NCBI GenBank assembly: GCA_902773215.1
Contig: CACYDQ010000078.1
Location: 1-11,819 of the forward strand
Source: an uncultured Spirochaetaceae bacterium
Lineage (GTDB): Bacteria > Spirochaetota > Spirochaetia > Treponematales > Treponemataceae
Reading direction: 5' to 3'
Length of the DNA stretch: 11,819 bases
The position numbers and the translations under genes are program-made. Below are positions 958 through 10,428 of the stretch, piece by piece. The notes beneath the pieces were generated by a model. The model saw only the letters and a program-made list of their open reading frames with translations, made no database searches and had not been told where the DNA came from. Position 1 is the first letter of the stretch; every line of letters begins with the position of its first letter.

Positions 958-978
958 CTGTCCGCGCAGTCAGTCCGC
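949..978. terminator. Perfect hairpin spanning two convergent stop codons
   Basis: A 12-bp perfect inverted repeat (GCGGACTGACTG at 949-960, CAGTCAGTCCGC at 967-978) is separated by a 6-base loop, TCCGCG. The left arm contains the LysR TGA stop (955-957) and the right arm touches the first base of the TAG stop of the kinase-DegV gene (978-980). It sits where a bidirectional terminator is expected. Neither side has a run of T, so it may instead act with Rho or protect the 3' ends of the transcripts. Confidence 0.6.
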
Positions 979-3900
979 TACGCCCTCCGCCTGAAGAGGA
1001 GGCCCATGCTTCCGGGCCCGCAGTTGCTTGAGACCGCCGGGGAAGCCTTCTGGAAGAAGACCTGCTTGAAGGGGACGATGGACAGGGCCTGTTCCTTGAC
1101 CGCCTGAAGCTCCTGATAGGTCAGGCCCGCGTAGGTGATGTAGAGGATGCTGTCGTCTATCGAGGACTTGTTCCTCAGCGCCGACTTCACGTAGCTTTCG
1201 CGTGCCTTGTCCAGTTCCCCGAATTCTATGCGGGAAAGCCGCATGGCCCCCTTCCGTATGGTCAGTATGGGATGAATCAGCAGGGCCTGGCAGAGGCCTT
1301 TCGCGAAATGGGACACGTGCCCGCCCCGTTCCAGGTAGTCCAGGCTGTCGACCAGGAAGCTGACGGAGAACCTCTTGCGGGATTCCTCAATCTTTTCCAG
1401 GACCATCTGCGGCGACGGGGTTTCCCTTGCAAACTGACGGGCGAGCAGGACCATCATCCCCATGCTGCTGGAAATGAGCTGGGAGTCCACGACGGTCACG
1501 TTGTCGAACGAGCGGGCAGCCTGGCACGCGTTGGCGAAGGAGTTTCCAAGGCGCGATGACATCGTGATGTGGATGAGGTACTGGGTCTCCTGCAGGCGTT
1601 TGGCGAAGAACTCCTCGTACTCCCTGACGGACGGGTCCTTGGACACGACGGTCTTGCCCGAGTTCTGTATGTAGTAGAGGAGGGAATCCGTGTCCACCTC
1701 CAGGTTGTCCATGAAGTAGCCCTCGTCCGTGACGATCGGGGTGGACAGGACGGGAATCCCCAGGCTTCGGAGCATGGGGAGGGGAATGTCGCAGACGCTG
1801 TCCGTGGAGATGACGAGCGGCAGCTTGCGGGAAGAGAGCTTGCGGGAAGAGACGGTCTCGCGCACCCTGATGCTGTCGCCGCGGAGCATCACGAGGTCTT
1901 CCGGCAGGAATGCGAGCAGCATGCTTTCCAGCTGCCCGCCGTTCACGGGCTTGGACAGGTAACAGTCAAAGCCCTCCCGCTCGTACAAAAGCTCGTTCTT
2001 GCGCCCTGCGTTGGCGGTCAGCGCGATGGCGGGCGTGTTCCTGTTGAGTCCGCCGGTCTGCCTGCGTATCTCGTGCAGGCAGGTTATGCCGTCCATCTCG
2101 GGCATCAGGTGATCGAGCAGCAGCACGTCGTAGCGCGTGACCTGGGTCATGGAGAGTGCCTTCTTGCCGCTGTCCGCCGTGTCCACCTGAATCTTGGTGC
2201 CGCGAAGCAGCTTGGTCTCCACCGTCAGGTTCATCTCGTTGTCGTCGACGATGAGGATGCGGGCGGACGGGGCCTCGAAAGACTGCTGGTAGGCCGTGCG
2301 GCTGTGCCCGGAACCGCGGGTCTTCAAGTCAAGTTCGCCGATGGCCTCCGGCCTGACCACTTCCTGGCTGAGCGTCACGGTGAAGGTGGAGCCGCGCAGG
2401 TAGATGCTCCGCACGTCGATCGTGCCGCCCATCAGCTCCACGAGCTGCTTTACGATGGAAAGCCCCAGGCCCGTACCCTCAATCATGTGGTTCTTCTGCA
2501 CGTCCACGCGCTTGAACGCGTCGAAGAGGTAGGGGAGGCTCTCTTTCTTCACGCCGATTCCCGTGTCCTCCACGGAGTAGGTGACGTTGACCGCGCCTTC
2601 CGCGAGGTGCTCGCAGCGGACCTTGAAGGCGACCGTACCCTCCCGGGTATACTTGACCGCGTTGGTCAGGAGGTTGAGCAGCACCTGCTTTATGCGCACC
2701 TCGTCGCCAAGAAGGGAGGAGGGGAGGTCGGGGGCTATGTCTATCAGGAATTCCAGATCCTTCTCTTTCGCCTTGACCATAATCATGCTGACGATGTCCA
2801 AGAGCATCGTCGCCGTGTCGTAGGGGGCGGAGACAATCTCCATCTTGCCGTTCGTCAGCTTGGACATGTCCAGGATGTCATTTATGAGGGCGAGCAGCAT
2901 GTTGCCCGCCCCGGCTATGCCCCGGGCATCCTCGGCGACCTCGTCGGAGATATCCTCCCTCAGAATCATCTCGTCCAGGCCGATTATCGTGTTTATGGGC
3001 GTGCGTATCTCGTGGCTCATGCTGGAGAAGAAACTGCTCTGGTTCTCGTTCAGGATTTCGATCTGCTTCTTCTGCTCGCGGATGACTTTGTTCTCCCTGA
3101 TGTAGCGGCGGGTCTGCACGATGCTGAATATGACCGCGGTCATAAAGAGGAGTATGGCGAACATGAGCGCGTGGCAGATAATCCCGCTCTGCAAGGAGAA
3201 GGGGTGTATAAGGAGGAGCGACCAAGTGTCGTTCAGCGGGGCGAGCTGGAATGACCCCAGGTCGGAAGTCCCCCGCAGTACGTCTGCATGCTGCAGGGGC
3301 AGCCTCTTCAGCTCCTCCTGCAGGCCGTACAGCATGGCCTTCTCCTCAATCCTGTCGGGCAGGGCATAGCAGCTTGCGAAGTTTCCGTTTTCGTCCCGCA
3401 GCAGGAGGTACTTGTCCCGTTCTTCCCAGGGGGTATGCAGCAGGTCGCCCATCGCATCCACCGGCATACGGATTCCGGCGACGCCCGACTTCATGCCGTC
3501 GGCCCGGTACACGGGGACGCTCATGCGCAGCCAGTGCCTCCGGGATTGGGGATCCGTCTCCTTGGTGATGAGGCAGTAATCCTTCTCGTAGGCGGTCTCG
3601 TACCAGCTGTCCTGTTCGGACGGAGGGAATATCCGGTAGCGGAATTCACCGTTCTCGTAGTAGCGCAAATCCTTGTCGGAGACAAAGAATGTTATGCAGG
3701 AGGAGGGCAGGCTGCTTACGTGCTTGAGGCAGGAATTTTGTACCGTCTCCTGCCGCGTGTTCCCGTCCGGGTTCTGGAAAAACTCCTCCAGCACCGGGTT
3801 GGAGGCCATCGTATGGGCGCAGAGCAGAGCCTCGCTTTTGGCCGCGCTGACCTGCCGGAGAATCTGCTCCAGCTCGCCTCTCAGCTTCATGTTCAGAGCC

Positions 3901-4010
3901 AGCTTGTACAGGTAATACGCTCCGAGGAACTGGGCGGCAATCCCGGTGGCCAGGGACAGTAGGAAGATGGTGAGCCTGCGTTTGCCGCGCGGGGAAAACT
4001 TACGCTTCAT
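978..4010 (-). CDS. Hybrid sensor histidine kinase with receiver and C-terminal DegV domain
   Basis: This is a 1010-residue membrane kinase. Domains in order: TM helix (about 13-36); extracytoplasmic Cache-like sensor (about 40-270); TM helix (about 277-298); short coiled linker; HisKA with SMSHEIRTPIN and phospho-acceptor H333; HATPase_c with N box NLLTNAVKYT (N450), EDTGIGV (D482) and EGTGLGLSIV (511-520); receiver about 584-703 with D589/D590, phospho-acceptor D633, T665 and K687-P688; linker; then a full-length DegV domain (about 730-1010). The DegV part shows STDSVCDIP, SKDPS (790-794), MSSRLGNS (817-824), VVDS, DSLDYLERGGHVS and NCGPGSMGLLF. DegV proteins bind fatty acids, and FakB members present them to FakA kinase. 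Fusion to a hybrid kinase is unusual. The ATG at 4010 is preferred over the upstream in-frame start at 4115 because GGAGG (4016-4020) lies 5 bases before it. It overlaps the preceding kinase gene by 11 bases, suggesting coupled translation. Confidence 0.9.
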   Translation of the reverse strand: MKRKFSPRGKRRLTIFLLSLATGIAAQFLGAYYLYKLALNMKLRGELEQILRQVSAAKSEALLCAHTMASNPVLEEFFQNPDGNTRQETVQNSCLKHVSSLPSSCITFFVSDKDLRYYENGEFRYRIFPPSEQDSWYETAYEKDYCLITKETDPQSRRHWLRMSVPVYRADGMKSGVAGIRMPVDAMGDLLHTPWEERDKYLLLRDENGNFASCYALPDRIEEKAMLYGLQEELKRLPLQHADVLRGTSDLGSFQLAPLNDTWSLLLIHPFSLQSGIICHALMFAILLFMTAVIFSIVQTRRYIRENKVIREQKKQIEILNENQSSFFSSMSHEIRTPINTIIGLDEMILREDISDEVAEDARGIAGAGNMLLALINDILDMSKLTNGKMEIVSAPYDTATMLLDIVSMIMVKAKEKDLEFLIDIAPDLPSSLLGDEVRIKQVLLNLLTNAVKYTREGTVAFKVRCEHLAEGAVNVTYSVEDTGIGVKKESLPYLFDAFKRVDVQKNHMIEGTGLGLSIVKQLVELMGGTIDVRSIYLRGSTFTVTLSQEVVRPEAIGELDLKTRGSGHSRTAYQQSFEAPSARILIVDDNEMNLTVETKLLRGTKIQVDTADSGKKALSMTQVTRYDVLLLDHLMPEMDGITCLHEIRRQTGGLNRNTPAIALTANAGRKNELLYEREGFDCYLSKPVNGGQLESMLLAFLPEDLVMLRGDSIRVRETVSSRKLSSRKLPLVISTDSVCDIPLPMLRSLGIPVLSTPIVTDEGYFMDNLEVDTDSLLYYIQNSGKTVVSKDPSVREYEEFFAKRLQETQYLIHITMSSRLGNSFANACQAARSFDNVTVVDSQLISSSMGMMVLLARQFARETPSPQMVLEKIEESRKRFSVSFLVDSLDYLERGGHVSHFAKGLCQALLIHPILTIRKGAMRLSRIEFGELDKARESYVKSALRNKSSIDDSILYITYAGLTYQELQAVKEQALSIVPFKQVFFQKASPAVSSNCGPGSMGLLFRRRA
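1822..1851. repeat. Perfect 15-bp tandem duplication in the receiver-DegV linker
   Basis: The 15-base unit agcttgcgggaagag occurs at 1822-1836 and again, without any change, at 1837-1851. It is in frame and produces the doubled peptide SSRKL-SSRKL (residues 721-730) directly before the DegV domain starts. Confidence 0.9.
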
Positions 4011-6366
4011 TCGTACCTCCAATAAGGGCGGCCACCTGCTTCTTAAGCCCGTCAAAATCAAATTGCTCCACGGACGCGAAAGCCCCCGGCAGTATCTCCT
4101 CCACAGTCTTGCCACCCTGCCTCATGCCATCCAGCCTGCGCAGGATGATGACCGCCCGGTCTGCCTCCAGTGTGTCCAGCGAGTCCTTGAGCGCGGCGAG
4201 CAGCTGCCCGTAGTCCAGCTCCGCGATGGTATCCCCGAACGGGGTATCGGGCTGCTCCCCGGATGCCGGGACAGAAAGCTGCATCGGGAGTCTGCCCGGG
4301 AATTCGTTTATGTACTGTATCTTGGAAATTGGGAGGGAACGTCGCAATGCCCGCTCAAACATCATCAGCTCAATCGGCTTGGAGATAAAGTCATCGAAGC
4401 CTTCCCCCAGGAAGAACTCCCTCGCGCCGCTCGAGGCGTTCGCGGTGAAGGCAATGGCGACCATCTCCTTCTCTGCGTGAGTGTTCAGCTTGCGCAGGAT
4501 GTGCAGGCATTCCACGCCGTCCATCTCAGGCATCATGTGATCCAGGAACAGCACGTCAAAGTTTCGGCTACGGCACAGCTCTATGGCCTCCTTGCCGCTC
4601 AGGGCAAGGGTCACTTCCATCTGGTAGTCCTTGAGCACGCCCTCCGCGACCATCAGGTTCATCTCGTCGTCATCGACGACGAGCGCCTTGAGCCCGGGAC
4701 AGACAAAGTGCTGGGGCACGTCGCTCTCCTCGGCGACATAATTCCCGTTCAGTACGTTGACGAGCGGGACGCTGAAGAGGGGCTTCTTGATGATGGGTAT
4801 CGAGCCCAGCCGGTAGCCCTCGAATTTCCTGCCCACGACGACCGCGACGGTCACGCGGGCGGCAAGCCCGTCAAAGAATTCCGGATCGTCGTTGTACTCG
4901 TCCCTCGACGTGAACAGGTGGGACACGGGGTATGTCTGGCATATCTGCTTGAGGCCGTCCATATCCGGGGCGCGTATCAGCGTTCCCTGGAGGGATTTTT
5001 GTATGGTCGCTATCATGCGCTCGTAGTACTCGCGCACCATTGGGTCGCTGAATTTCTCCGAGCGGAAGTAATAGACCACGCAGAGGGAGCGTTCGTTGGA
5101 AATGGACATGCTCGGCGAGTAGTCGGATACCTTCTGGGGTATGCTGATGTTTATCTCCGTCCCCTTGCCGACCTCGCTTTCCACCCGGATAAAGCCGCCC
5201 ATGCTCCTGACCAGGCTGGACGTAACGGTGAGTCCCAGTCCGATTCCGCTGCTCTTGCGGGTGCGGTCGGAGTCCGCCTGATAGAGCTTGCCGAAGACCT
5301 TGGACAACTGCTCGTCGCTCATGCCGATGCCGGTGTCGCAGACCGAGATAAGAAGGTTCGCGCCGTAGTCCCGCTTGAGCGTGCTGAGCTTGACGAACAC
5401 GCCTCCTTTCTGCGTGAACTTGAGGGCGTTCTCGATGAGGTGGCGGAGGATTTTCTTTATCTTTCCCTCATCGCCGAGCATGACGGCGGGAATGCGGATG
5501 TCAACGTCCAGGATCAGCTCAACGGAGGGCTTGTCGTCCATCTCGCTCAGGCCGCTTATCACGTCGTTGATGCAGGACACGATGCTGTAGGGGGACTCGC
5601 TCACCTTGAGCCGCTTCATCCCTATCTCCGTATAGTCCAGGATGTCGCTTATCTGCCCGTAGAGCCTGTGCCCCGCCCGCTTGATGGCGTGCAGCTCCGA
5701 CCGCTTCTGAGCGTCGTCCTCCTTCTTCAGGAGGGACTCGCTGATGCCCGTCACGGCGTTGATCGGGGTGCGGAGCTCGTGCGACACGTTCGCCATGAAG
5801 TCCTCGGTCTGCCGGTTCACCTCCTTGAGGCTTTCCACGGCGGCCTGAACGTTCTTCTTGGACTTGCGCCTGCGGTAAATCACGTCCTTTGTGGACAGGG
5901 TCGCCACCGTCACCGACACGATGTCCATGGAGAGCCGGGAAATTTCAAGGGGGCCGCTTATCGCCCCGATTGTCCCGGTGATAAAGAAGTGCCAGACGAG
6001 TATCAGGCCGTAGACGGCGACCCCCGCATAGATGGCCCACTCGCAGTCCAGGGTCATGAAGACGGTCTGCATGATGATGGCGATGATGGGAACGTCAAAG
6101 AGGCTGTCCGGGTGCACGCCGTAAAAGAAGAATGCCCCCAGGCAGATGAGGACGTAGAGGGGGGGGCGTATTTCCAGCGGGACGAAGCGGGTGAAGTGGC
6201 AGAACATCATCACGCCGATGACCGCGAGCAGGAAGGGAACTGCCCAGGTCTCCCAGCCCATGATCAGTGTCTCCGCTATCAGCCCCAGGAACATGAAGCT
6301 GGAGACGCATATCGCAGCAAGGTGGGCGGCGAGCAGCTCCTCGTCCTGTTTCAGCTTCGTTTCCAT
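4000..6366 (-). CDS. Hybrid sensor histidine kinase with six predicted TM helices, pseudo-receiver and receiver
   Basis: This is a 788-residue membrane kinase. The N-terminal 165 residues hold about six hydrophobic helices (11-37, 40-58, 68-85, 92-107, 110-130, 146-163) with little room for an external domain, so it probably senses within the membrane or responds to a partner. HisKA follows with VSHELRTPIN and H196; then HATPase_c with IENALKFT (N313), CDTGIGM (D344) and SSGIGLGLTV (372-381). Residues about 425-545 look like a degenerate receiver that keeps the KKP (527-529) end motif but lacks the acidic pair and phospho-acceptor Asp. A second, intact receiver (558-675) has D565-D567, D609, T641 and K663-P664. 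A helical tail (about 700-788) resembles that of the Hpt protein in this cluster. There is no Hpt domain. The ATG at 6366 has GGAGGAG 9 bases upstream. The gene starts 19 bases after the response regulator stop and overlaps the kinase-DegV start. Confidence 0.92.
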   Translation of the reverse strand: METKLKQDEELLAAHLAAICVSSFMFLGLIAETLIMGWETWAVPFLLAVIGVMMFCHFTRFVPLEIRPPLYVLICLGAFFFYGVHPDSLFDVPIIAIIMQTVFMTLDCEWAIYAGVAVYGLILVWHFFITGTIGAISGPLEISRLSMDIVSVTVATLSTKDVIYRRRKSKKNVQAAVESLKEVNRQTEDFMANVSHELRTPINAVTGISESLLKKEDDAQKRSELHAIKRAGHRLYGQISDILDYTEIGMKRLKVSESPYSIVSCINDVISGLSEMDDKPSVELILDVDIRIPAVMLGDEGKIKKILRHLIENALKFTQKGGVFVKLSTLKRDYGANLLISVCDTGIGMSDEQLSKVFGKLYQADSDRTRKSSGIGLGLTVTSSLVRSMGGFIRVESEVGKGTEINISIPQKVSDYSPSMSISNERSLCVVYYFRSEKFSDPMVREYYERMIATIQKSLQGTLIRAPDMDGLKQICQTYPVSHLFTSRDEYNDDPEFFDGLAARVTVAVVVGRKFEGYRLGSIPIIKKPLFSVPLVNVLNGNYVAEESDVPQHFVCPGLKALVVDDDEMNLMVAEGVLKDYQMEVTLALSGKEAIELCRSRNFDVLFLDHMMPEMDGVECLHILRKLNTHAEKEMVAIAFTANASSGAREFFLGEGFDDFISKPIELMMFERALRRSLPISKIQYINEFPGRLPMQLSVPASGEQPDTPFGDTIAELDYGQLLAALKDSLDTLEADRAVIILRRLDGMRQGGKTVEEILPGAFASVEQFDFDGLKKQVAALIGGTNEA

Positions 6367-6384: not shown

Positions 6385-7146
6385 CTACACGCTCTTGCCC
6401 AGGAAGAACGAATCGATGGTCTTGACGATCATAGCCTGGGGCATCGTCTTGAGGATGTACTTCTCGGGGTGCGCGTCAAGGACTTTCTTGACGGTCTCCT
6501 TGTCATCCTTGGAGGTCAGGAAAATCACCGGTATCTTGGACAGGGAAGGAATCTTCTTTATCATCTCGAAGGTCTCGAGCCCGGATGTCTCCGGCATCTC
6601 GTAGTCCAGCAGGATGAGGTCAACGGAATTCTTTTTCAGGAAGTCCATCGCGTCCGAGCCGCTCGTCGCCATGAACACCGTGTACTTGGCAGACAGCCAG
6701 CCCTTTATGGTCCTGAGCACCAGGGGGTCATCGTCCACGATGAGGATTCTCTGGCCCAGGCTCTTGCCGGACTTGGACACCTTTTTCAGGTCGTCGATGA
6801 TGTCCTTGGGGTCAATCGGCCTGGTGTACATCCTGTCTATGAAGGCGGGGGGGATTATCTCGTGCACGAAGTCCAGCTCCCCCTTGGAGCCGACGATGAA
6901 AAGGGACAGCTCGCCGCTGCTCTTGGCTATAACCCCCTGCAGGTACTTCAGCGTGCTCTCGAAGCCCTGTATGTCCCCTTCCATGTACACGAGGAACACC
7001 GGGGGAATGTCCCCTTCAAAATTAGAAAGGTAGGACGGATCCGGGGGGTAGACCTTGACCTCAAAATCATGATCCCTGATGCTCTTTATCATCGCCTTCG
7101 CAAGGAAACCCGGCTCCTTGCCTATGAATAACACGCTTTTTTCCAT
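6385..7146 (-). CDS. Double-receiver response regulator without output domain
   Basis: This 253-residue cytoplasmic protein is made of two receiver-like halves. Residues 1-122 have the alternating beta-alpha pattern, but carry GKEP where the acidic pair should be, YMEGD where the phospho-acceptor loop should be and R109-P110 in place of Lys-Pro. It is therefore a pseudo-receiver. Residues 132-250 form an intact receiver: ILIVDDDP (D138, D139), LLDYEMPE with D181 as acceptor, T211 in FLTSKDD, and K233. The Pro normally following that Lys is Thr. There is no DNA-binding, GGDEF or enzymatic domain, so it may be a relay intermediate, a phosphate sink or a protein-interaction regulator. The ATG at 7146 is preceded by AAAGGAAG with about 7 bases of spacing. 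It lies 39 bases after the Hpt gene and 18 bases before the polytopic hybrid kinase gene, in the same direction, so an operon is likely. Confidence 0.9.
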   Translation of the reverse strand: MEKSVLFIGKEPGFLAKAMIKSIRDHDFEVKVYPPDPSYLSNFEGDIPPVFLVYMEGDIQGFESTLKYLQGVIAKSSGELSLFIVGSKGELDFVHEIIPPAFIDRMYTRPIDPKDIIDDLKKVSKSGKSLGQRILIVDDDPLVLRTIKGWLSAKYTVFMATSGSDAMDFLKKNSVDLILLDYEMPETSGLETFEMIKKIPSLSKIPVIFLTSKDDKETVKKVLDAHPEKYILKTMPQAMIVKTIDSFFLGKSV

Positions 7147-7185: not shown

Positions 7186-8265
7186 TTATATATCGGAAAG
7201 CAACGCCAACGCCTCTTTCTTGTTCACGTCGCCCACGGCTTTTTTCAGTTTCCTGATAAAATCCCGCCGGTCATCCGCCACACGGTACTCCCCGAGCGAG
7301 CCGATGATGTAGTCCGCGCTGTCAAAGTCCGAGATTTCAAGGCATTCCTTCAGATCCCGGCAGGCGGAAGCAAGGTCTTCCTCCGTAAGGAGGGGGCGGT
7401 CGTCTTCTGCCTGTGCGCTTTCCTCATCTCCGTGCTCCACGACGGGAAGGAGCCGCTCCCGGTAGCTCCGGTAGAGCTCCAGCAAAGCCGGGGTCTTGCC
7501 GGCGATTTCCTCCGTCCGCATATCATCGGCGGCAGCTTCCAGGGCCTTTGCGTCGGCGGAAAGCTGCATGGCCCCTATCAGGCGGGCAGAGCTTTTCAGC
7601 GAGTGCACCGCAATCCGGTAGTTCTTCCAGTCCCCGGCGGAGACGAAGCCTTCCAGAACTCCGGCCCGTTCCTCTATGCTGTCGTAGAACTTCTGCATGA
7701 CTGTCTTGAGGACATCCTCGCCCCCGCAGTTTTTGACCGCTTCTTCCAGGTCTATGCCCTCCATCGGCGGGAATGCCGGGGGCTTCGGGGCTGCCCCGGC
7801 GGCTGGTGCGGGTACGGCCGGAGTCCCAGGTATGGCGGAAGCCCCGGGTATGGCGGAAGCCACAGGTACGGCTGAGGCCGTGCGCCTTACGTCCAGCAGC
7901 GTGCAGACTCTCCTGCAGAGGACGGATGGTACGGGCGGGGGCAGCTGAATCAGGTCGGACACGCCGGAGTCAAAGAGGCTTTCCAAAAGCCCCGCGTCCT
8001 CGTTCCCGTCGGTCAGGAGGAGCAGGGGAACGCCGGCCAGCCTGCGGTCGGCCCTGATTGCCCCAAGAAGGGAGAAAGGCTCCTCAATGCCTGCGTGAAA
8101 GAGGATGATGTCAGTCTGATGATCTTTTAAGAAGGAGAGGGCCGTCTCTGCGGACGGGGCGTAGCTGACGCGCATGCCGCAGGACAGGAGGGCCTGCCCT
8201 GTGGCTTTGAGTCGGTCTTTGTCTGTGTCGATGAGCAGGGCCCATCCGGTCAGCTTCACGTTCAT
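7186..8265 (-). CDS. Hpt phosphotransfer protein with N-terminal pseudo-receiver
   Basis: This 359-residue cytoplasmic protein is the likely phosphotransfer shuttle for the two hybrid kinases, neither of which has its own Hpt. Residues 1-125 fold like a receiver (LLIDTDKD, LLLLTDGNED), but His57 stands where the phospho-acceptor Asp should be (DIILFH) and Gln107 replaces the conserved Lys. An Ala/Pro linker (about 130-168) with ASAIPG repeats follows. The Hpt domain (about 169-278) contains AVHSLKSSARLIGA, with H221 the likely phosphorylated residue and K224 the usual partner. A helical tail (290-359) resembles the end of the polytopic kinase. The frame is open up to an ATG at 8316, but that start lies in the -35 element of a good promoter and the ATG at 8289 lies in its -10 box. 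I therefore chose the ATG at 8265, just before the first beta strand. The leader is then about 16 bases, with no Shine-Dalgarno. Confidence 0.87.
   Translation of the reverse strand: MNVKLTGWALLIDTDKDRLKATGQALLSCGMRVSYAPSAETALSFLKDHQTDIILFHAGIEEPFSLLGAIRADRRLAGVPLLLLTDGNEDAGLLESLFDSGVSDLIQLPPPVPSVLCRRVCTLLDVRRTASAVPVASAIPGASAIPGTPAVPAPAAGAAPKPPAFPPMEGIDLEEAVKNCGGEDVLKTVMQKFYDSIEERAGVLEGFVSAGDWKNYRIAVHSLKSSARLIGAMQLSADAKALEAAADDMRTEEIAGKTPALLELYRSYRERLLPVVEHGDEESAQAEDDRPLLTEEDLASACRDLKECLEISDFDSADYIIGSLGEYRVADDRRDFIRKLKKAVGDVNKKEALALLSDI
7808..7879. repeat. Four imperfect 18-bp tandem repeats in the Ala/Pro linker
   Basis: Four 18-base units lie at 7808-7825, 7826-7843, 7844-7861 and 7862-7879. 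The two middle ones differ at a single base (ccaggtatggcggaagcc versus ccgggtatggcggaagcc) and the outer ones are more diverged. On the minus strand each encodes a six-residue unit of ASAIPG type in the flexible linker between pseudo-receiver and Hpt domain. Being in frame, copy-number change would alter linker length without breaking the gene. Confidence 0.85.
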
Positions 8266-8287
8266 AGGGGTTCGTACAATATATACC

Positions 8288-8316
8288 ATTATACTATACA
8301 AACCCCGCGAACGCAA
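8288..8316 (-). promoter_or_regulatory. Promoter of the phosphorelay cluster
   Basis: Read on the minus strand: TTGCGT (8316-8311), a 17-base spacer and a perfect TATAAT (8293-8288). Predicted transcription would begin near 8281, about 16 bases before the ATG at 8265. It lies in the 66-base gap after the chemoreceptor. The same -35/-10 pair with the same spacing occurs before that chemoreceptor, which strengthens the call. Confidence 0.65.
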
Positions 8317-8331: not shown

Positions 8332-10428
8332 TTACACCTTGAACTCGTCTATCTGCTTGCCTATCTTGCCGATTGACTGTTCCATGCGGCCGGAAACCTC
8401 TTTGAGCGCCATGCCGGTCTCGTTTATCTTCCGTGCCCCGTGGAGCATCTCGTCCATGCTCTGCTTCATCGAAATCGTCACGTCCTGCAGCATCTGCACT
8501 TCGGAAAGGATGAGCTTGTTGCCCTCGTGCATCTCCTCGGAGGCGACCTTGACTTCCTGCGTGCTGTCGTTCATCAGCTTGAGTGCGCCGACAATCTGCT
8601 TGGAACCCTGGTTCTGCTCCTCCATCGCCGTCCGCACCTGCATGACCAGCTGGTCGGTGTCGGCAAGCTCCTGCGAAACCTGCGAGAAGGTCTTGCTCGC
8701 TTCCTCGGAGGCGTGGACGACGTCCGCGATGGAAGCCATTATCTGCTTGAGCTGGTTGCTTATCTGCGTGGACTGCTGGCCGGAAGTCTCGGAGAGCTTG
8801 CGGATCTCGTCCGCGACGACTGCGAATCCCTTTCCCGCCTCGCCCGCATGGGCCGCCTCGATTGCGGCGTTCATGGCGAGCAGGTTGGTCTGCTCCGCGA
8901 TGCTCGAAATGGCGGCGTTCGCGTCCTGCAGCGTGGCGGACTGGCTCTCGATGGCGGAAACCTTCTGGCTCACGGCCTCAAGCTTATGGAAGCCTTCCTG
9001 GGAGTGGGACTGCAAGTCGCCGAACACGTCCTTCATCCGCTCCACCGAGCTGGTGACGGCATTGATGTTGCCTATCATCTGCTCGACGGCCGCGCTCGCC
9101 TGGGACACGCCGCCCGACTGCCCCTCTATCATCTTGTTGAGCGAGTCCACGTTGGCGGAAATCTCGTCCACTGCCCCGGCGGTCTGGTCCACGCTCTTCT
9201 TCTGGTTGTCGATCTGATGGCCGAAGCTGTCTATGTTCGCGATGATCTGGTTGATCGCGCTCGCGGTGTCCTGGGCGGACGCGGCCATGTCGCTTCCTGC
9301 AATCCCCAGCTCGTTCTTGGAGGCCTTGACCTCCTTGATGATGTCCTGAAGCTTCTCTGTAAATTGATTGAATCCCTGCACCACCTGGCCGATTTCGTTG
9401 CCGGAACTGACCGCGATTCGCTGGGTCAGGTCGGCGTTGCCCGTCGCGATGCCGCGGATGGTGTCGCGGACGGTGCGGAGCGGCCTGAGGGCGACGACCA
9501 GCACCACGCCGCCCAGCACGAGGATGACGATGAGGACCCCGATGCCGAACGCCGTCGTCGCAGCAGCAATCTTGTCACCCAATGCTTCAATCGAACCCTG
9601 CGCGACGGTGAAGCCGAATGCCCAGGGGGTGTCCTCTATACTGCCGTAGACAACGAGGTCCTGCCCATTACCCGTGTAGGACTTAATCCAGCCGTAGCCG
9701 GACTCGCCGTTGACCATCTTCTGGGAGTAGGGAATGAGGTCCTCATGCCCCTCGCCGGGGTTGGTCAGGAAGTTGCCGCCATCCGCCGCATAGGGGTGGT
9801 ACATGACGTTGCCGTCGTGGTCCAGCATGAACTGCCAGACACCGGCAGGGACGTTCAGCTCCTTGACGGGCTTGATGAGGATTTCCAGCGGGATAATCCC
9901 CGTAATCATGCCGAACAGCTTGCCGTTCCTATCCTTGAGCGGCTCGGACACGTGAACGACAGTCTTGCCCGTCGTCTTGGCGGTAACGGGGTTGTCCACG
10001 TAGCGGGCCTTACCCTGCTTCATTATTGCCTGGAAGTAGTCGCGGGTAGATATCTCGGTCGGCTTGCCCTGATCGGTGACCGCCTTCCCGTCAGGACCGG
10101 TAATCATCATGTATTCGTACTCGGAGGCCCTGACATGGGTGTTGGCCAGCATCCACTGGATTGCCGCATCAAGGTCACCGTCCTTCATCACGTCCGCATG
10201 AACGTAGACCTGCAAATCCTTGAAGTAGCCTTCCACGTTGTTATCTATCGCAAGCTTAAGCGCGTCCGCAAGAGTTCTGTAGCTCTCCGCGTTGGACGCC
10301 TTGGAGTCAGCCTTTGCGATTCTGGAAATCGCGAAAACCTGCACCGCCGTCATAATGGCGAAGCCCGCCCCAATCATCAGTATGAGGTAGGCGACAAGGC
10401 TCAATGACTTCTTTTTTTCGTTTTCCAT
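8332..10428 (-). CDS. Methyl-accepting chemotaxis protein with dCache sensor
   Basis: This is a complete 698-residue transmembrane chemoreceptor. It has a TM helix (about 10-35), an extracytoplasmic double-Cache sensor (about 45-280), a second TM helix (about 290-313), HAMP (about 315-366, with GNADLTQRI and [10 protein letters not shown]) and a long coiled-coil signalling domain. The hairpin tip ([20 protein letters not shown] from 512, through [11 protein letters not shown] to 547) is the highly conserved CheA/CheW-binding site. In the sensor, STRDYFQAI and YVDNP resemble the dCache ligand-pocket strand, but Tyr and Phe replace the Trp-Tyr of the amino-acid-binding RxWY motif, so the ligand is uncertain. 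The protein ends in IDEFKV, with no CheR/CheB-tethering pentapeptide. The ATG at 10428 has GGAGGA 8 bases upstream. It has its own promoter, and no clear terminator separates it from the phosphorelay genes. Confidence 0.95.

Follow-up and report, generated by a model that had tools for sequence, protein, structure and literature searches.

What does a DegV domain, the fold of the FakB fatty acid carriers, do at the C-terminal end of a histidine kinase? The question is raised by a contig of 11,819 nucleotides from an uncultured Spirochaetaceae bacterium (CACYDQ010000078.1, assembly GCA_902773215.1), which was analyzed over its whole length and is called the window below. A minus-strand gene in the window encodes a hybrid histidine kinase whose receiver is followed by a DegV domain. 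We find that this DegV kinase is nearly always encoded behind a second hybrid kinase, here called HK2, which suggests a little-known system for sensing lipids inside the cell. Our preferred reading, to which we assign a probability of roughly 0.55, is a two-kinase phosphorelay with one Hpt domain in which the DegV domain would be a cytosolic acyl-lipid input. The partner kinase, the single Hpt domain, and the cyclic di-GMP (c-di-GMP) enzymes encoded beside relatives form the main context of the fusion and go beyond the first-pass annotation of the window.

The DegV Kinase Is Encoded by One Intact Frame

The first-pass annotation had claimed a single uninterrupted kinase-DegV frame, and no internal stop does in fact interrupt the minus-strand frame 978..4115. 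Its likely start, judged from the sequence, is the ATG at 4010, which has GGAGG just 5' of it and makes the gene share its first 11 bases with the end of the gene upstream. Starting here the protein has 1010 residues, and the earlier placement of the DegV part at residues 730-1010 therefore fits. Pfam residue numbers refer to the 1045-aa frame, and 35 is subtracted to obtain those of the 1010-aa protein. In the longer numbering HisKA lies at residues 359-423, HATPase_c at 470-584, Response_reg at 620-732, and DegV at 768-1041, so that the kinase domains and receiver directly precede DegV, as had been claimed. The DegV coordinates proposed before, 978-1824, agree with the stretch assigned by Pfam (Table 1).

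The match to the DegV profile (PF02645) covered positions 3-277 of 280 with 150.6 bits against a cut-off of 27, and the NCBIfam model TIGR00762 was also above its cut-off (163 versus 99.7 bits). The H-box histidine, the ATPase domain, and the receiver aspartate expected of a hybrid histidine kinase are all present. In the receiver, the acidic pair, the phospho-acceptor Asp, the Thr, and the Lys are invariant across the 17 rows of an alignment. A dCache_1 match at residues 101-249 falls below the Pfam cut-off. Structure prediction of the receiver-DegV region, which had been proposed as a check, gave a predicted local distance difference test (pLDDT) score of 83.7 and a predicted template modeling (pTM) score of 0.61, with a linker scoring below 50. 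Compared with lipid-loaded structures, the domain in the window has the full-length DegV fold.

Table 1. Features of the window
Feature	Position	Strand	Basis or remark
DegV hybrid kinase gene, 1010 aa	978..4010	minus	Open reading frame with Pfam; frame open to 4115
Cache-like N-terminal sensor region	3369..3815	minus	dCache_1, 28.8 bits, below cut-off of 45
HisKA with SHEIRTP motif	2847..3041	minus	Pfam
HATPase_c	2364..2708	minus	Pfam
Receiver	1920..2258	minus	Pfam
Receiver-DegV linker, predicted disordered	1830..1877	minus	pLDDT <50 at residues 157-172 of 455-residue piece
DegV domain	993..1814	minus	Pfam, NCBIfam, fold comparison
HK2 partner hybrid kinase, 788 aa	4000..6366	minus	HisKA, HATPase, unnamed middle domain, receiver
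HK2 middle domain (HK2mid), family marker	4702..5109	minus	Without Pfam match
Response regulator, 253 aa	6385..7146	minus	One Pfam receiver (6415-6747)
Separate Hpt protein with receiver-like N-terminus	7186..8316	minus	Hpt at 7510-7701
Chemoreceptor (dCache-HAMP-MCPsignal)	8332..10428	minus	15 bases upstream of Hpt frame
Second chemoreceptor, cut by contig end	10595..11818	minus	Association only

The Fusion Recurs in Two Phyla

It had been left open in the first-pass annotation whether the fusion occurs only in this assembly, with kinase and DegV encoded separately in relatives. The domain-architecture search proposed there showed that the fusion is widespread. Restricted to proteins of ~575 to 1829 aa, the search found 34 proteins, that of the window included, all of which have DegV and a receiver by precomputed Pfam matches. 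HisKA and HATPase_c are also present in 33 of the 34; the remaining one is a 652-aa fragment encoded on a short contig. The proteins fall into size classes of ~1010 aa (several with a Cache match), ~890 aa, and ~1140 aa (Hpt in 6 of 11). Where they are named at all, they are called only "DegV family protein" or "DegV family EDD domain-containing protein." A few relatives do have DegV as a separate gene (L121-L123), yet it adjoins the same partner kinase HK2.

These proteins also dispose of an error of assembly or annotation, to which we give practically no weight. The window is a whole contig of a fragmented genome (523 contigs, 72% complete), which is what speaks for an artefact. However, the 33 other fusion proteins refute it: three carry Butyrivibrio strain names (LC3010, AE2032, and JL13D10), two of these three sit on contigs of 2.8 and 3.7 Mb, and the same kinase-DegV junction occurs in two phyla.

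In the genus of the window, DegV was found in 24 of 118 genomes and the fused form, with an open frame of at least 893 aa, in eight. The four nearest loci, three from Treponema (one from goat rumen) and one from Spirochaetaceae, are 86-89% identical in the DegV part; the carriers of L004, L008, and L010 are from rumen according to their records. In a family sample around L012 (Lachnospiraceae), 51 of 299 genomes matched a receiver-DegV profile at 1e-70 or better, a scan in which five candidates per genome were scored and units were therefore missed. Both receiver and DegV are spanned by 45 of these matches, a contig end truncates one, and the remaining five are to DegV alone. A wider class sample gave matches in 9 of 341 genomes, five of them already counted, and a phylum sample gave 1 of 247, the window's own genome. 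This patchy occurrence (8/118 in the genus, 1/247 in the phylum sample) favors transfer as the apparent route of spread.

DegV domains from the kinase unit form their own branch in a midpoint-rooted tree (support 100/99). The long-branch rows L040, L128, L015, and L018 were left out of this careful tree and kept in a quick tree and in the site counts. The ten Treponema rows were grouped together in none of 200 bootstrap trees and stand at two places among the Bacillota rows. A simple story of two transfers into Treponema was nevertheless dropped; approximately unbiased (AU) tests rejected neither a single Treponema clade (p = 0.181) nor a single Bacillota clade without Treponema (p = 0.096).

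The DegV Kinase Is Nearly Always Encoded next to a Second Kinase

A full-length relative of HK2 is encoded just upstream of the DegV kinase in all 14 loci that cover the upstream sequence, in both phyla, as judged by tblastn; L003 and L069, which start too late to show the upstream gene, lie outside the 14. Overlaps of 1-4 bases between the two genes are common. The N-terminal region of HK2 resembles membrane helices by eye. The middle domain, HK2mid, has ~135 residues and is conserved across the two phyla. Its position had suggested a pseudo-receiver, but profile comparison with the receiver of HK2 itself gave no support for this assignment (probability 1.4).

An HK2 profile, built from loci chosen for having DegV, was run over the 299 genomes, with three kinases per genome scored and units therefore missed. 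It gave 62 high-scoring places at a cut set at the observed edge, where the gap is narrow (686 bits or more, against 673 bits for the next). At 59 of the 62 a DegV match lies no more than 4 kb downstream on the same strand; the remaining three end within ~400 bases of a contig end. None of 59 lower-scoring kinases has DegV downstream. HK2-like kinases with no DegV in view do exist (L136 and L138), so HK2mid is not exclusive to the unit. Ten DegV places in the sample have no listed HK2 upstream, and some of those fetched are cut by contig ends or are variants. No separate HK2 was found in the fetched stretch at six DegV places (L069, L118, L119, L125, L127, and L131), of which L069, L127, and L131 lie at contig edges.

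A Single Hpt Domain Accompanies Each Kinase Pair

Of the 41 loci with both kinase genes in view, 25 have the Hpt domain on HK2, 7 have it on the DegV protein, and none has it on both. In another 8 it is an adjoining frame; the window and its close kin are among these, the free Hpt protein replacing the Hpt domain that many relatives carry on a kinase. The adjoining frame at L111 is the broken-off end of HK2, and the Hpt frame of L120 is two genes upstream. Several loci where a third kinase is close by (L004, L115, and L117) have additional Hpt domains that are not part of the pair. In the quick tree the seven loci whose DegV protein bears the Hpt domain group as one branch, with a value of 100 in the Shimodaira-Hasegawa-like approximate likelihood ratio test (SH-aLRT). 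The Hpt domain thus shifts its place but not its number, as expected if both kinases feed the same Hpt.

Many units also adjoin a candidate recipient of the phosphate. A c-di-GMP enzyme domain is encoded on the same strand within 9 kb in at least 20 of the 41 pairs, a lower bound from stretches of unequal length and a count with no background control. In 15 of the 20 it belongs to a receiver-HD-GYP protein, mostly encoded directly before HK2, as in L063, L065, L067, and L007-L009; the GYP motif is present in all 15 and the upstream HD motif in 14. At L009:1138-3507, directly before HK2, a 789-aa REC-GGDEF-REC-HD-GYP protein combines domains for c-di-GMP synthesis and breakdown in one regulator. 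The regulators of other relatives consist of a receiver alone. In the window and its nearest relatives there is a one-receiver regulator together with an Hpt protein, and Pfam found no output domain in the 253-aa regulator of the window.

The DegV Domain Has Probably Left the FakA Partnership

The functional residues of FakB2, which we take to be Thr-61, Ser-93, Arg-170, Arg-202, and His-266, land on T, S, R, R, and H in structure 4x9x. The matching FakB1 residues in PMC8892158 support this numbering, and the paper also gives FakB1 Arg-205 (FakB2 Arg-202) as needed for FakA binding. By multiple alignment the window has Ser, Gly, His, Phe, and Asn at the five positions. The claim that the domain carries every DegV landmark was thus only partly upheld: the listed sequence motifs are present, but the functional residues of FakB are not all kept.

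Site counts compare 66 DegV domains from the unit with 27 free-standing ones, the rows being related and 20 of the 27 coming from one genus. At the Arg-202 site, where the window has Phe by multiple and Glu by pairwise alignment, a basic residue occurs in none of the 66 unit domains, compared with Lys or Arg in 27 of the 27 free-standing ones; in another alignment and set (47 fused, 27 free) this column is less surely placed. Arg at the Arg-170 site (FakB1 Arg-173, needed for phosphorylation of the fatty acid) is kept in 31 of the 66. Of the carboxylate network of Thr-61, Ser-93, and His-266 the window retains only the hydroxyl at Thr-61, where 59 of the 66 unit domains have Thr or Ser. His-266 itself is found in 8 of the 27 free-standing domains. 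Asn at this site was dropped as a discriminator of function, His being missing from many free-standing DegV proteins too. Most free-standing DegV proteins of the Treponema genus (L001 and L027-L037), some of them encoded beside FakA, have Ser there.

In the genus each of the 18 FakA genes has a free-standing DegV gene no more than 3 kb away, and 18 of 23 free DegV genes (one a fragment) are near FakA, compared with none of the 8 fused ones. Among the 8 genomes of the genus that have the fusion, the FakA C-terminal profile matched in 2, and a third (G090) has a FakA-like frame cut by a contig end; no FakA was found in G017, G020, G115, and G128 (90-98% listed completeness) or in G073 (89%). The absence of FakA is not general, because 7 of the 8 genomes behind the named loci have it; the window's own genome has a FakA gene as well (G000:C160).

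The presence of FakA in these genomes is what would speak for a FakB tethered to the membrane and supplying FakA with fatty acid, the kinase having been joined to it by chance or for co-regulation. We consider this very improbable. No unit DegV is basic at the FakA-docking site, the catalytic Arg-170 survives in under half of them and is lost in the window, five of the eight fused genomes of the genus lack FakA, and none of the fused DegV genes lies near it. The likeness to FakB thus appears to be one of fold and not of partnership with FakA. Loss of an Arg that contacts membrane and FakA would fit a domain that a membrane kinase already anchors.

The same substitutions bear on the ligand. The ligand of the pocket might not be an acyl lipid, or the domain might serve only in dimerization or as a scaffold, which we regard as rather unlikely. 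The altered network (the Ser-93, Arg-170, and His-266 sites) and the wide divergence of unit DegV domains, 28-42% identical to that of the window outside the Cache-bearing Treponema group, point in this direction. On the other hand, 31 columns are at least 85% identical across the 66 domains of the unit, many of these residues being far less frequent in free-standing DegV, and the full DegV fold stands beside lipid-loaded structures, though a shared fold shows no function.

Probably an Input Rather than an Output

The first-pass annotation had offered DegV either as an acyl-ligand input or as an output; from the sequences the input fits better and the output less well. As an output, the domain would bind or release acyl lipid on phosphorylation of the receiver, and the relay would control a fatty acid pool or hand lipids to enzymes. 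In most units DegV does follow the receiver directly, like an effector domain, and its fold is kept at full length. We nevertheless judge an output role unlikely. The domain has lost the residue with which FakB1 docks to FakA and touches the membrane, and the relay often has effector domains on separate response regulators.

The input is also favored because DegV occurs in other arrangements. At L120:5431-8304 the common order is inverted, with DegV N-terminal on a hybrid kinase; this frame is open at the contig end and may hold another C-terminal domain. At L118:2290-4878 and L119:1951-4563, HK2-type proteins end in DegV and are followed by a GGDEF protein; Pfam found neither HisKA nor a receiver in them and no H-box is present, so they look like degenerate-kinase DegV sensors. 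DegV is fused to Hpt alone at L125 and is free beside HK2 at L121-L123.

We therefore return to DegV as the input of a two-kinase relay. The DegV kinase would be the DegV-bearing half of a conserved phosphorelay in which it shares one Hpt domain with HK2, the two proteins coming from adjoining, often overlapping genes. The Hpt domain would pass phosphate to a separate response regulator, which would be an HD-GYP/GGDEF c-di-GMP enzyme in many relatives and is a receiver-only protein here. The DegV pocket would hold a fatty acid or a similar acyl lipid, and its occupancy would shift the kinase/phosphatase balance of the kinase pair.

Several observations weigh against this proposal. Placement behind a receiver at the C-terminus is usual for outputs, and the receiver-DegV model predicts no docked signaling interface and no sign of rigid docking. 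With Gly, His, and Asn at the Ser-93, Arg-170, and His-266 sites, the pocket may take a ligand other than a free fatty acid, or one that is no acyl lipid at all, and Asn at the last site is not special to a sensor role, since Treponema DegV proteins beside FakA also lack this His. What the domain binds and does is deduced here from sequence. DegV stands without a separate HK2 at L118, L119, and L125, which are exceptions or variants. No c-di-GMP enzyme was found in the stretch examined around the window and its nearest relatives (L004-L006 and L066), and each of the eight fused Treponema genomes has 8-13 HD_5 matches anyway.

Neighboring Genes

Upstream of the Hpt protein in the window lie two chemoreceptor genes (Table 1), the nearer of which is possibly in the same transcript as the unit. 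Chemoreceptors are also found upstream of the unit in L006 and L128, downstream in L111, and on the opposite strand beyond it in L063; at L011 genes upstream encode a chemoreceptor together with a CheA-like protein. The unit may be linked to chemotaxis. At L063:4681-6753 a 690-aa protein joins a chemoreceptor signaling domain to iron-only hydrogenase large-subunit and Fe-S domains. A second hybrid kinase cluster with a receiver protein faces the unit from the opposite strand at L004:7615-13953.

Significance and Comparison with Known Systems

DegV/FakB proteins have been studied as fatty acid carriers for membrane lipid synthesis, and here a large set of DegV domains has apparently been recruited for signaling. 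To our knowledge, the means by which bacteria sense fatty acids of their own, internal or incorporated, are largely an open question, and the unit allows a direct test of it in Butyrivibrio strains. In the rumen, Butyrivibrio hydrogenates unsaturated fatty acids, which are toxic to it; a lipid-to-c-di-GMP switch, if real, could bear on biohydrogenation, biofilm, and motility. Judged by titles and the opening of abstracts, we found no description of a DegV-histidine kinase fusion in the literature, which is weak evidence as most subscription journals lie outside the coverage. More tentatively, with chances a little short of even, the units may be a distinct, undescribed class of intracellular lipid-sensing phosphorelay, in which a FakA-free DegV would report acyl-lipid state to c-di-GMP turnover or chemoreceptor-linked regulators. 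Such a class would have arisen by fusion of a second kinase to a free DegV gene that adjoined a c-di-GMP-linked kinase, would have spread in Lachnospiraceae and their kin and passed to rumen Treponema, and would be a counterpart, with an internal receptor, to sensing of the diffusible signal factor (DSF). The architecture is real and conserved, and by its parts the unit is a phosphorelay in which DegV would be an additional sensor.

The DegV domains of the unit share with DegV/FakB the family assignment, the fold, and the Thr or Ser at the Thr-61 site. They differ in being fused to or encoded beside hybrid kinases, in their docking site, in their distance from FakA within the genus, and in forming a branch of their own. 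A gene neighborhood of DegV with hemolysin III is described in PMC3146951. In ShkA, as given in PMC7010744, a pseudo-receiver between the ATPase domain and the receiver binds c-di-GMP. HK2 likewise has an extra domain between HATPase and receiver, but HK2mid was not recognized as a receiver by profile comparison.

RetS/GacS is a multi-kinase phosphorelay with more than one hybrid kinase in one relay; here, in contrast, the two kinase genes adjoin each other and one of the kinases has a domain of the lipid-binding type. The nearest functional parallel is RpfC/RpfG, in which RpfC is a hybrid kinase and its partner RpfG a REC-HD-GYP protein. DSF, a fatty acid signal, activates the histidine kinase of Xanthomonas (PMC5391125); RpfC binds it in a 22-residue N-terminal sensor region. 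HD-GYP regulators beside the unit in relatives resemble this arrangement, whereas no HD-GYP protein is encoded in the unit of the window. The unit would further differ in binding its ligand in a cytosolic DegV domain instead of an N-terminal sensor, and it has two kinases. By analogy it would at most work like RpfC/RpfG and is not a member of that system.
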